A model generated the notes under the pieces. It worked only from the letters and a program-made list of their open reading frames with translations, was not told the DNA's origin and searched no databases. Position numbers and translations under genes: made by a program. 64,000 nt of DNA from Thermoplasmatales archaeon (GTDB lineage Archaea; Thermoplasmatota; Thermoplasmata; Thermoplasmatales; Thermoplasmataceae): assembly GCA_016806715.1 (NCBI GenBank), contig CP060531.1, positions 496,001 through 560,000 on the forward strand, read 5' to 3'. Below are positions 6,253 through 10,723 of this stretch, piece by piece (the first letter of the stretch is position 1; each line of letters opens with the position of its first letter).

Positions 6253-7392
6253 CTAATTTTCAAAAATATCATCCTGTTTTTCAATCCATTCAACCTCGTC
6301 CCTGCGTATTATCTGGGCAGGAATTTCCAGTTTGTTCCGGATTTTATCCCTGATCAGTGATGCACTGAACCTCAATACGTGATCGAGGCCATGAGGGCAG
6401 TTGTTTATGGTGGTGATCCAGCCACATGAATTGCAATAAACTACCTCTTCAAAGGGGAGGATTTCTATTCCAAGATCATCAAAACTTAGTAAGTTCTCCT
6501 GTGCAGCATATGGTTTATAAAAATTGCCGGTACCGGCATGATCTCTCCCAACTATGAAATGAGTGCAACCAAAATTCTTCCTCATTATCGCGTGTAATAC
6601 GGCTTCCCTGGGTCCTGCGTAATACATCTCATAATTCAGGGTGGAAAATAAAACATTCTCTGCGGCATAATATGAATCCAGCACCAGTTGGTATGCCCCC
6701 AATATTATCTCATCCCTGAAGTCTCCTCTCTTTTTCTTTCCTATAACCGGATTTATGAATAAGCCATCCACAAAATTAAGTGCTGATTTCTGTATGTATT
6801 CATGCCCCAGATGAGGAATATTCCGTGTTTGGAATGCAGCTATTTTTTTCCAGGACTTTTTAGCGAATGCTTCCCTAGTTTGGGCTGGAGACAGAAAGTA
6901 TTCTGAGAATGGCAGAGGTTCTCCCGATATACTGACAAGCTTTCCTGATACCAATTTCTGTCCCATTTCCAGTGTTCTCATCACTCCCGGATGCCCGGGG
7001 TCATTTGTGCCAAATATTTTTTTGCAAAATTCACTTTTGTCGAAATCCCATATATCGTCTACCAACATCTCAGCAAGAATGCTGCCGTTCCGCGTAAGGT
7101 TGATCAGATCCCCTTTGGAAATCGCATACCTCGAAGGGTCTATGTCAAGCACTATGGGTATTGACCAAGGTATCCCGTTCTCCAGCCTCTGATTCTGCAA
7201 TATGCTCATATAATCGTTGTAGCTGCTGAAGGAAGACAATGGGCTGTAGACCCCTGTCTTAATAAGAAAGAGGTTTACTGCGGTTCTGGAATCTACCTCC
7301 ACGGATTGAGCCTTCTGGTCATGTGAGGAAGCCTTTAAATCAGGTAAGTTAACCAGGATACCCCCATGTGGTTTTGCCACCATTTCAATCAT
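6253..7392 (-). CDS. sat: Sulfate adenylyltransferase (ATP sulfurylase)
   Basis: A 379-residue monofunctional ATP sulfurylase that makes adenosine 5'-phosphosulfate (APS) from sulfate and ATP. Signatures present: QTRNIPHLGHEY (QxRNxxHxxH), GRDHAGTGNFY, and a C-terminal cysteine cluster CNSC near a CPHG, a metal-binding feature of archaeal and many bacterial Sat proteins. Its ATG overlaps the end of cysH by 8 bp, so the two are co-transcribed and probably translationally coupled; an alternative ATG lies at 7383. No APS kinase gene is present, which agrees with direct APS reduction by the upstream CysH. Confidence 0.95.
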   Translation of the reverse strand: MIEMVAKPHGGILVNLPDLKASSHDQKAQSVEVDSRTAVNLFLIKTGVYSPLSSFSSYNDYMSILQNQRLENGIPWSIPIVLDIDPSRYAISKGDLINLTRNGSILAEMLVDDIWDFDKSEFCKKIFGTNDPGHPGVMRTLEMGQKLVSGKLVSISGEPLPFSEYFLSPAQTREAFAKKSWKKIAAFQTRNIPHLGHEYIQKSALNFVDGLFINPVIGKKKRGDFRDEIILGAYQLVLDSYYAAENVLFSTLNYEMYYAGPREAVLHAIMRKNFGCTHFIVGRDHAGTGNFYKPYAAQENLLSFDDLGIEILPFEEVVYCNSCGWITTINNCPHGLDHVLRFSASLIRDKIRNKLEIPAQIIRRDEVEWIEKQDDIFEN

Positions 7393-8095
7393 CCTCTCTT
7401 AGTTTTGCATGAAATGGCAAAGAGGTATGAATGCCGCATTCCCTGATGCTGTCTTCCCACCACCATCTGCCGCTCCTTTCATTTTCATTTGGCAAGACCG
7501 CTCTGGTGCACGGAGCACATCCTATACTCTTGTAACCTCTTGCGTAAAGGGCGTTGAATGGTATATCAAAAAGTTTAGTGTATTCCCACACTTCCACGGA
7601 AGTCCAGTTTAGAAGCGGGTTGAATTTCTTCACTCCGTAATGCAGGGTATCCAGCTCCTCCACCTTACTGTATTTTCTTGTGCTCGTCTGATCTAGTCTT
7701 ATTCCAGTCATCCAGGCTGCATATCCAGACAGCAGGTGATTGAGCGGTTCCACTTTCCTGAGTCTGCAACAGAGTTCTCTCAAATAGACGGATTTCCTGA
7801 ACAGGTTGATTCCATTCGTCCTTACCATGTCTTCGATTGAATCCGTCTCCGGGAACAGGATTTCCGGAGTAATTCCATATCTTCCGGCAATCGCATCCAT
7901 GACATCATATGTCTCCTGCGGCAATCGACCAGTGTCCAGCGTGACATGCCTGATTTGAATTTTTTCCCTGGCTATCAAATCCGTTATGACATTGTCCTCC
8001 ACGCTGAAACTGGTCAAGAAAACTACCCTATTCCCAAATTCTCTATTAGCTTTCCGCAGAATTTCAGATGACTCATTTACCCTATCATCAAGCAT
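7385..8095 (-). CDS. cysH: APS/PAPS reductase, 4Fe-4S type
   Basis: A 236-residue CysH-family reductase. The N-terminal PP-loop-like region reads LTSFSVEDN, and TLDTGRLP is the nucleotide-binding strand. A cysteine pair in ELCCRLRK and a CAPC motif (IGCAPCTRAV) together match the CC...CxxC set of iron-sulfur APS reductases. ECGIH near residue 220 carries the catalytic Cys. The iron-sulfur form usually prefers APS to PAPS (family knowledge). It releases AMP and sulfite. First gene of the sat operon; TATA box about 21 nt upstream. Confidence 0.92.
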   Translation of the reverse strand: MLDDRVNESSEILRKANREFGNRVVFLTSFSVEDNVITDLIAREKIQIRHVTLDTGRLPQETYDVMDAIAGRYGITPEILFPETDSIEDMVRTNGINLFRKSVYLRELCCRLRKVEPLNHLLSGYAAWMTGIRLDQTSTRKYSKVEELDTLHYGVKKFNPLLNWTSVEVWEYTKLFDIPFNALYARGYKSIGCAPCTRAVLPNENERSGRWWWEDSIRECGIHTSLPFHAKLREDD

Positions 8096-8108
8096 GCGGA
8101 ATCATCGT

Positions 8109-8123
8109 CTTATTATATATATG
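8109..8123 (-). promoter_or_regulatory. TATA box of cysH-sat
   Basis: Minus strand reads CATATATATAATAAG, centred about 21 nt upstream of the cysH ATG at 8095, giving a near-leaderless mRNA. It directly abuts the 20-bp palindrome at 8124-8143. Confidence 0.6.
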
Positions 8124-8143
8124 AATTTACAAGTATGTAAATT
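8124..8143. promoter_or_regulatory. Perfect palindrome, candidate operator between cysH and comA-like gene
   Basis: AATTTACA-AGTA-TGTAAATT: two perfect 8-bp arms around a 4-nt centre, immediately upstream of the cysH TATA box in the divergent promoter region. Further copies of the half-site occur at 8155-8162 (ATGTAAAT) and 8192-8200. A dimeric winged-helix regulator is the obvious type of binder, and the neighbouring ComA-like protein carries one (inference). Confidence 0.6.
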
Positions 8144-8191
8144 TCCATTAATACATGTAAATAACCGCACTTATTATATCATAAATAGCAA

Positions 8192-8203
8192 AATTTACAT
8201 ATT
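8192..8203 (+). promoter_or_regulatory. Half-site overlapping the TATA-like element of the comA-like gene
   Basis: AATTTACATATT lies about 24 nt upstream of the ATG at 8223, where a TATA box is expected, and repeats the AATTTACA arm of the palindrome at 8124. With ATGTAAAT at 8155-8162 it forms a wide inverted repeat. This arrangement would suit autorepression. Confidence 0.45.
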
Positions 8204-8222
8204 CTTTTTTACTTGCAATCTT

Positions 8223-9197
8223 ATGTCATTGTTTTTTGACGAATATCCCAGGCAAACCCTGATTCCGGATCCAAAAACCATGGTCATCGACCGGTTGCTT
8301 CCTGGCATTGATGAATTGCTTGCCCGTTCATGGAGATATTTTACTGTCGCCAAAATAGGCTGGGGGCTGCCACTCCTGATTGAGAATCAACAGCTCAGGG
8401 ACAGGGTAAAAGTATACCGGGATAAGGGCATAGATGTCTCTAATGGGGGTACACTACTCGAACTTGCATCTTCCAAGAACAAGGTTGGCATAGTGCTTGA
8501 TCACCTGCTTCAATCCGGATTCTCTACCATAGAGATGAGCGAAGGTGTAATAGATATCTCGAAAAAGGAAAAGAAAACCATTGCTGAGTTTGCACGGCAG
8601 AACTCAATGAAGCTGCATATTGAGGTTGGAAGGAAGAATGTTGGAAACCAGCTTTCGCTTGAGGAGACAATTGACAGGGTCAACTCTGCGCTTGATTTTG
8701 ACCCGGACGTTGTGATAATTGAGGGCAGGGAAACTGGCAAGAGTGTGGAGATATATGACAGCGAGGGCCACATAAAGTGGGATTGGGTTTCGAGGATAAT
8801 GGAGACATTTGATTCTTCAAAGATAATGTTCGAAGCACCCCTCGAGGAGCAGCAGGCACAGCTGATCACGAGGATCGGGCCATCTGTAAATCTTGGAAAC
8901 ATATCACTGCATAGCGTTTTACCACTTCAGAGCCAGAGAATGGGTTTCAGGGGAGATACATTTGGAGGGCACGTGAGCCCGGAAATAATAACAGGGAGTC
9001 CTGCGGCCAAATTCGTATATCACATCATAGCTTCGCACATGTCCATTGACCAGGGTCAGATCAGCAGGATCTCAGGGCTTAGCAGGAGAACCGTGCAGAT
9101 AGCCATAGATTCATTGACCTCGCAAGAAGTCATAAAAGTTGCAAATGATCCAAGGGATATGCGCCATCACATCTATTCGGTGGAGAGAATTTCCTGA
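8223..9197 (+). CDS. Phosphosulfolactate synthase (ComA)-like protein fused to a winged-helix domain
   Basis: 324 residues. Residues 1 to about 250 match the ComA TIM-barrel family: KIGWG, NGGTLLE, EMSEG, EVGRKNVG, VIIEGRETGK, FEAPLEEQQ, SVNLGNI and FRGDTFGG. ComA condenses sulfite with phosphoenolpyruvate, the first step of coenzyme M synthesis in methanogens. The last ~65 residues form a winged helix-turn-helix (IDQGQISRISGLSRRTVQIA, then a wing ending in HHIYSVE). The gene is divergent from the sulfite-producing sat-cysH operon, and palindromic sites lie between them. It could be an enzyme, a sulfite/PEP-sensing regulator, or both. The frame is open further upstream (to 7986), but ATG 8223 is where ComA similarity begins and where the promoter fits. 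Confidence 0.85.
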   Translation: MSLFFDEYPRQTLIPDPKTMVIDRLLPGIDELLARSWRYFTVAKIGWGLPLLIENQQLRDRVKVYRDKGIDVSNGGTLLELASSKNKVGIVLDHLLQSGFSTIEMSEGVIDISKKEKKTIAEFARQNSMKLHIEVGRKNVGNQLSLEETIDRVNSALDFDPDVVIIEGRETGKSVEIYDSEGHIKWDWVSRIMETFDSSKIMFEAPLEEQQAQLITRIGPSVNLGNISLHSVLPLQSQRMGFRGDTFGGHVSPEIITGSPAAKFVYHIIASHMSIDQGQISRISGLSRRTVQIAIDSLTSQEVIKVANDPRDMRHHIYSVERIS

Positions 9198-9399
9198 AGG
9201 AAATTGAAGTGAGATCAAATGAAAAATAAAGTAGAGGATAGACGCCCTTAATTTTGGGGGGAGTGTATTATTCCCAGAACAGACAATACCCAGGATACAA
9301 AACGAAAACGCCATTCTGGTTCCTAATTACCAAATAGTATCATAATTTTGGCAATCGGTACCCAAAAGTGATAAAAACTGGTAATAAATTACCATTCAA

Positions 9400-10723
9400 T
9401 GGAGTTTAGTGCAATAATCCTGCAGAACCCATGGTGGAAAACTCTCTCTCAATCAATGAGGACAGAAAGGTAAGAACTGCACTGTAATCGACTCCCCATT
9501 ACATTTACCCATACAGGGATGAGAACCTGCCCATAATTGGCCCTAGGCAGGCGGGAAAACAACAATTGTCAAGCTTGGAATAAGGGACCTGATCATAAAC
9601 AAAAGGGTAGATCCGAAGAATATAATCTTCCTGTCATGCGACTTTGTCGACAATAAAGACGATCTACTTCAGGCTCTTTTCCTGTTTGAGGAACAATCTG
9701 ACAAGAAGTCCATGAGATACATATTTCTGGATGAAATCAGTTTCGTCAAGGACTGGAACGCACTCGTCCTTGGGCTTTTCAATTCCGGTTTTCTTGAAAA
9801 TAAGAGAAACTATCTGACCGGGTCATCATCCACTTCCCTGCTGAAGAAAACTTTCCCGGGAAGGGAAATTACGAGAAGGGTATTCACCCCGCTTCAGTTT
9901 CGGGAATATTTCAACACGTTCTATGAAAAGATTCCATTGGAGTTCGAAAATGTGAATTTAGAAGACATTCGATCGACCTACGAGAAGAGCCTGAGGCTGA
10001 TGCCTTACATCAGTGACCTCAACATTGCCCTATTGTCATACGTTATGGCCGGGGGGGCTGCTGGCTCCGTCTTACAGCTTTAAATTTTCAGGGCATGATC
10101 CCTTGGACAGTCTGTTTGAAACCTATAGGGACGCCAGCATTAGTGACATAGCAAAACTGGAAAGAAGCCAAAAATCCTTCAGGGAAATCCTGAATGTCCT
10201 TGTCACCAGTTATACTACCAGACTTTCTGCGAACTCCATAGCAAGTAAGACTTCAGTCGGATCACATTAGACTGTTGAATCGTACCTGGAACTCATGGAG
10301 CAATTATTTCTCATTAAGATCGTTTACTTCAGCAGGGATGGAAAAGTATCACCGAGAAGCAACATGAAGGTCTACTTCCTGGACCCTTTCATATATCGCA
10401 TACTGAAATTGTACTCTACTGGAATTTCCGAATACGGCGAGAACGAGGTCTCGAAAATTATAGAGGGAATTGTAGGCACACACCTTGCAAATCTGGGAAA
10501 GGAAATTTATTACCAGCACACAAAAAGTGGAAAGGAAGTTGCTTTCCTCATAAACAATATATGCGTTGAAGTAAAGTGGGGAAACAGAGATACGAGAGAG
10601 TTGTTCTGCGAAAAAGGCTATCTACTAACGCGTGATGCAATTCCTGAGATCACAGGAGAAAGAGCGTCTATTCCAGTATCAATTTTCCTGTACACGAACA
10701 GTGCTGTGAACCCACTGAGTTAG
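9400..10723 (+). pseudogene. Broken AAA-type ATPase with DUF4143-like C-terminus
   Basis: Pieces in different frames add up to one ATPase. They are a degraded Walker A (IGPRQAGK near 9540, followed by a frameshift into TTIVKLG), a Walker B-like YIFLDEISFVKDW (about 9720), a sensor-like LTGSSSTSLL, and a C-terminal nuclease-fold part (TKSGKEVAFLINN, VEVKWG). Lesions: a TAA near 9470, a shift near 9556, a shift at the G7 run near 10050, and an in-frame TAG at 10268-10270. An intact relative is at 39463-40734. These ATPases are frequent, often solitary archaeal genes of uncertain function. Confidence 0.75.

Follow-up and report, generated by a model that had tools for sequence, protein, structure and literature searches.

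Phosphosulfolactate synthase (ComA; PF02679/TIGR03849), as found in M. jannaschii (1qwg) and B. subtilis (1u83), is a TIM-barrel enzyme whose substrates are sulfite and phosphoenolpyruvate (PEP). The protein analyzed herein shares this barrel at about 35% identity, together with nearly all of the ComA invariants; unlike ComA, however, it carries a C-terminal winged helix and the substitutions K208E and L238Q, scores below the equivalog level, and is paired with cysH-sat in a genome without ComC. Its winged-helix fold and wing motif resemble those of the MarR family (ZitR, MarR 3bpv, BldR), as do the short, AT-rich, partly palindromic candidate operators and the divergent, autoregulatory-looking gene pair, but the shared portion is limited to a winged helix of 60–70 residues, and the fusion has an enzyme barrel in place of the MarR dimerization helices. 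The coupling of an enzyme domain to a DNA-binding domain that controls its own pathway is known from the enzyme-derived regulators, or trigger enzymes, BirA, PutA, and NadR; no earlier case built on a ComA barrel or concerned with sulfite was found among such regulators in the literature searched. The proteobacterial LysR-type sulfite sensors YeiE and FinR are comparable in the proposed response to sulfite, the divergent sulfite-handling gene, and autoregulation, and one member of the fusion family adjoins a YeiH-family gene. The fusion differs from them in being archaeal and in having unrelated domains and an unrelated DNA-binding fold, with no LysR domain.

The window, namely the whole 64,000-nucleotide stretch of DNA analyzed, derives from the genome of a Thermoplasmatales archaeon (hereafter the home genome), which consists of one contig and is 97% complete. 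The genes and domains of interest are as follows.

6253 to 7392, minus strand: sat, encoding ATP sulfurylase; it overlaps the cysH end and belongs to the same operon (Pfam/NCBIfam)
7385 to 8095, minus strand: cysH, the sulfite-making APS/PAPS reductase, with CC..R, CxxC, and ECGIH motifs (Pfam/NCBIfam and sequence)
8223 to 9197, plus strand: ComA-winged-helix fusion gene, 324 aa (Pfam/NCBIfam, 20-orthologue alignment, AlphaFold2)
8277 to 8966, plus strand: ComA TIM-barrel domain, residues 19–248, retaining the ComA invariants, with K208E and L238Q as class switches
8997 to 9179, plus strand: MarR-like winged-helix domain, residues 259–319, with the recognition helix at 288–300 and the wing at 305–319

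The motifs in CysH are presumably those expected in an active APS reductase. The divergence of the fusion gene from sat-cysH, pointed out in an earlier reading made from the sequence only, was confirmed by these coordinates. At 9541–10720 of the window, an ATPase-like gene appears to be split into several ORFs in different frames and is likely a pseudogene.

The fusion ORF begins at the ATG at 8223, a start common to the congeners, and ends with the stop codon at 9195–9197; the start at 8096 given in the sequence-only reading had included the intergenic region. That a full ComA domain is followed by a winged helix in one protein was in turn borne out by the agreement of Pfam, AlphaFold2, and Foldseek. 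The Pfam ComA model matched residues 19–245 (E 9e-59) at 199 bits, above its cut-off of 25.2, and the NCBIfam equivalog TIGR03849 reached 210 bits, below its cut-off of 280. HTH_36 and MarR-like Pfam models matched residues 259–315, the HTH_36 score being just under the curated cut-off of 25 bits with the full-length protein (24.3) and over it with the C-terminal piece alone (26.5), and neither LysR helix-turn-helix nor substrate-binding domains were among the Pfam matches of the fusion. AlphaFold2 predicted a TIM barrel and a clear winged helix with a mean pLDDT of 88 (92 for the tail alone); in this model only about 70 residues extend beyond the barrel, and the MarR dimerization helices are absent. 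Foldseek aligned the barrel with M. jannaschii ComA 1qwg (E 1.6e-22, TM 0.92 by target length) and the tail with MarR-family winged helices (E about 2e-4, TM about 0.85 by query length). Furthermore, the alignment of 20 orthologues revealed an invariant core in both barrel and tail, including residues of the recognition helix and the wing.

The survey of ComA-helix fusions and their neighborhoods across Thermoplasmata, as the sequence-only reading had proposed, was carried out by scanning GTDB genomes. A single-protein query gave no match to GTDB contigs, and an alignment query gave 80 loci, the best 80 of 187 relatives, with other ComA groups lying outside this sample. Among these best 80, 52 loci (L046–L097) were fusions, hosted within Thermoplasmata by Ferroplasma acidarmanus Fer1, Cuniculiplasma, E-plasma, Sysuiplasma, ASS_A1, and many bins, and beyond it by Nitrososphaerales/Thaumarchaeota (Nitrososphaeria) and one Thermoproteota bin, while the standalone ComAs of methanogens and Bacillota lacked the helix in 28 of 28 cases. 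An artefact of one genome or a frame fusion was ruled out by this conservation in more than 50 loci. Every orthologue whose C-terminus is complete kept the winged helix, and the search for same-context orthologues devoid of the C-terminal domain, which would have spoken against a regulator, produced none. In a barrel-only tree of the best 80 of 187, a single branch (SH-aLRT 97) separated all fusions from the other ComAs, and the fusion thus arose once. Independent bacterial fusions were rejected as well, the Pelotomaculum protein L118, which matched up to residue 310, having no helix. In a set of 61 relatives, PF02679 was found in 21, in open frames of at least 324 aa, and in a phylum sample fused frames occurred in 20 of 293 genomes, five short frames there belonging to another family.

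The cysH gene lies head-to-head with the fusion gene in 39 of the 52 loci, and four of the other 13 (L066, L082, L087, L095) end at contig edges. The only widely shared neighbors across loci were cysH (37) and sat (32), the next cluster numbering 9. Among the 61 relatives, CysH was detected in 20 genomes, all 20 of which have the fusion; of the others, G003 carries the fusion without CysH, and both are missing from 40 (Fisher p 3e-15, with shared ancestry ignored). Across the 293 phylum genomes, CysH was present in 16 of the 20 with a fused frame (p 5e-20) and UDP-sulfoquinovose synthase (SQD1) in 18 of the 20 (p 2e-16), shared ancestry again being ignored in both values.

The remaining contexts were also informative. 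At L086 and L088, the fusion gene diverges from a sulfonate ABC transporter of the SsuA/TauA-like (SsuABC-like) type, with TIGR01728 above its cut-off for L086; a UDP-sulfoquinovose synthase gene adjoins the fusion in L059 and L087; and the L051 fusion is divergent from a PF03601 protein, which we take to belong to the YeiH family, with UDP-sulfoquinovose synthase next to it. UDP-sulfoquinovose synthase consumes sulfite (PMC4388408), and YeiH of Salmonella provides sulfite resistance under the control of the sulfite-binding regulator YeiE (PMC12880088). The common thread of these contexts is sulfite. No sulfur-related neighbor was obvious at L036, L065, L083, L084, L096, or in the f7 clade (L158–L162, L164), in which cysH is not adjacent to the fusion. 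In L059, from a Nitrososphaerales bin, the UDP-sulfoquinovose synthase gene (7507–9792) contains an in-frame, intein-like LAGLIDADG insertion. Taken with the retention of the helix and the near-exact co-occurrence with CysH, the 39 divergent cysH pairs and the sulfite- or sulfonate-related alternative contexts strongly support the regulatory role tied to sulfite metabolism that the sequence-only reading had proposed.

Next, the intergenic DNA between cysH and the fusion gene was analyzed for candidate operators, which are listed below.

8113 to 8122, minus strand: cysH TATA-like element, read as ATATATATAA on the strand of that gene, between −18 and −27 relative to its ATG, a conserved block
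8124 to 8143, unstranded: palindrome AATTTACA-AGTA-TGTAAATT, candidate operator, −29 to −48, directly upstream of the cysH TATA
8156 to 8163, unstranded: additional half-site TGTAAATA, an 8-mer enriched in orthologous intergenic regions
8194 to 8202, unstranded: half-site TTTACATAT, candidate autoregulatory site overlapping the TATA position of the fusion gene (−29 to −21), an enriched 8-mer

The perfect palindrome lies exactly where the sequence-only reading had placed it, and the two further half-sites mentioned there were located as well, the one at 8194–8202 overlapping the fusion gene's own TATA position. Among 2000 dinucleotide shuffles of the AT-rich 127 bp, 230 (11%) contained a perfect inverted repeat with 8-bp arms and a spacer of 0–10, and 33 did so with a spacer of 4 only; the palindrome by itself is therefore within chance and constitutes weak evidence, and it is conservation that carries the weight. 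In this respect the expectation that the palindrome recurs in related genomes held in part: the core TTNCAN4TGNAA lies 96 bp before the fusion ATG in all three congeners having cysH and is partly conserved in L050, whereas the perfect 20-bp form is unique to the home genome, and more distant relatives have only half-site-like elements in common. Five of the six near relatives aligned retain the TTTACATAT block. Relative to shuffles, TTACATAT, TTTACATA, TTCATATA, and TTCACATA were enriched 6- to 11-fold in a non-redundant set of 35 orthologous intergenic regions, an enrichment that may come partly from TATA elements and shared ancestry.

Within the 1.96-Mb home genome, ATTTACAN4TGTAAAT occurs without mismatch only once, and the genome-wide search for further operators returned a sole one-mismatch match (L131), apparently within coding sequence; places within three mismatches of the palindrome numbered 198, versus 115 for the reversed control. 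No half-site cluster was found upstream of the home sqd1 gene, the nearest TTTACA being inside the upstream ABC-transporter gene, and no operator shared between unlinked fusion and cysH promoters was found in the f7 clade or in G034. The f7 cysH promoters (L169, L170, L171) have ATGCGCA-type repeats in common, including one perfect CACGCA-N5-TGCGTG, and these repeats were not found upstream of the f7 fusion gene. The position of candidate sites at both TATA boxes in the home locus suggests that the fusion protein would repress both promoters.

To compare enzyme and fusion, the residues of 39 main-clade fusions were set against those of 28 standalone ComAs. All ComA-invariant positions were kept in the fusions but two, K208→E and L238→Q, each substituted in 39 of 39 and invariant within either side; W186 is fusion-specific. 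Residue 208 comes after strand 7, at the C-terminal face of the barrel, which is where TIM-barrel enzymes have their active sites. The deepest fusion, L096, has T at 208 and L at 238, as expected of an intermediate. In a second fusion paralogue (L082, L083, L084, L095) the active site is degenerate: R243 is replaced by A in all four, D245 by E in L082–L084 (RGD to AGE), and L095 additionally shows R169G and E170D. This paralogue is divergent from a small GTPase gene in L083 and L084, and the four bins that harbor it also carry a cysH-linked copy (L085, L072, L070, L076). The distant L165 likewise shows R169A, E170D, R243A, and D245Q. All five of these proteins have retained the winged helix despite the broken active site, and this loss of active-site residues in two lineages with the helix kept favors a regulator over an enzyme; DNA binding thus appears to be the conserved function, with catalysis apparently dispensable in some members.

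Based on these observations, we consider it reasonably probable that the fusion is an enzyme-derived, one-component regulator of sulfite metabolism with sulfite as its most likely ligand. The foremost competing explanation, unlikely in our judgment, retains a regulator of sulfur assimilation but assigns it another ligand. Candidates would be APS, a sulfonate, an intermediate on the way to sulfosugars, or PEP acting by itself to signal carbon or energy status. The charge reversal at 208 suggests such an altered specificity, and the sulfonate-transporter and UDP-sulfoquinovose synthase contexts would suit a sulfonate or sulfosugar; however, the residues shared with ComA are otherwise intact, and no compound except sulfite links CysH, SQD1, YeiH, and sulfonate catabolism, which counts against a different ligand. 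Improbable to a greater degree is a trigger enzyme, in which an active phosphosulfolactate synthase would join sulfite to PEP while its helix represses sat-cysH according to substrate occupancy, making the protein detoxifier and regulator at once. Such activity would agree with the near-complete set of ComA-invariant residues in the main clade and with the ComB-like phosphatase family found in the home genome and 52 of 61 relatives, by which a two-step route to sulfolactate may exist in the home genome. Yet this family is present irrespective of ComA, ComC (PF02615) is absent from the home genome and from all 21 fusion relatives (0/21), the equivalog score is 70 bits short at 210 versus 280, and the uniform K208E and L238Q changes and the helix-bearing degenerate members argue in the same direction. 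An ordinary coenzyme M/sulfolactate enzyme whose C-terminal helical domain serves oligomerization instead of DNA binding would explain the conservation of the entire barrel, but is very improbable given the invariant recognition-helix and wing residues, the missing ComC in the fusion relatives searched, the strict divergent pairing with cysH, and the helix retained where the active site is lost. The suggestion in the sequence-only reading that the barrel senses or consumes sulfite/PEP accordingly remains plausible, and sensing is favored over catalysis because of K208E, the missing ComC, and the active-site-degenerate members.

The fate of the sulfite was then considered from the gene content. 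No NIR_SIR domain was detected in the home genome; it was present in only 3 of 21 fusion relatives, and of the 20 phylum-sample genomes with a fused frame, 18 lacked it. To our knowledge, every siroheme sulfite reductase carries this domain. As the home genome lacks it, and nearly all fusion genomes do too, sulfite is likely the end point of Sat-CysH in the home genome, and it is probably destined for sulfosugars by way of UDP-sulfoquinovose and not for cysteine. The home genome encodes UDP-sulfoquinovose synthase (sqd1) at 1014599–1015750. An ABC ATPase gene of the SsuB/TauB/NrtD type lies immediately upstream of it, in the region L140 5615–7760 (home positions 1013614–1015759).

In the mechanism we propose for the sulfite-responsive regulator, a protein evolved once from phosphosulfolactate synthase would detect sulfite through its ComA barrel, where PEP or another small molecule may also be bound in the former catalytic site. 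Its MarR-like winged helix would recognize short, AT-rich half-sites resembling TTTACATAT, located over or next to the TATA elements of cysH-sat and of the fusion gene itself. Repression of both promoters through a block of TBP/TFB would be the most likely mode, and the sulfite-liganded form would exert feedback control on sulfite production, with the Sat-CysH route presumably ending at sulfite, which would then feed UDP-sulfoquinovose synthesis. The fullest version of this proposal, an archaeal family of sulfite sensors that feedback-controls Sat-CysH in the absence of sulfite reductase and for sulfosugars only, is tentative, and we would place it somewhat short of an even chance.

No description of ComA-type regulators or of archaeal sulfite regulators was found in the literature searched, and the fusion, if the proposal is true, would be the first regulator built from ComA, and no sulfite-responsive regulator would have been proposed for archaea before it, as far as these searches show. 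It occurs in Ferroplasma, Cuniculiplasma, E-plasma, and numerous acidophiles not yet cultured, and reaches as far as Nitrososphaeria; it would offer a testable answer to how these archaea cope with sulfite, which is a toxic intermediate. A second testable point is that, where genomes encode Sat and CysH and lack a sulfite reductase, sulfate assimilation seems to serve sulfosugars (N-glycans or lipids) instead of cysteine. In view of K208E and L238Q, automatic pipelines that label members of the fusion clade as phosphosulfolactate synthase are probably in error for the clade as a whole. The association now holds over dozens of species, which makes the finding stronger than that of the sequence-only reading.

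Lastly, the congener that has the fusion without CysH (G003) encodes, on contig C6 (L141 3187–10546), a dissimilatory-type sulfite reductase pair, accompanied by genes resembling DsrMK and siroheme synthase and, close by, a separate Sat; its fusion gene (L036) adjoins gmhA and heptose genes.
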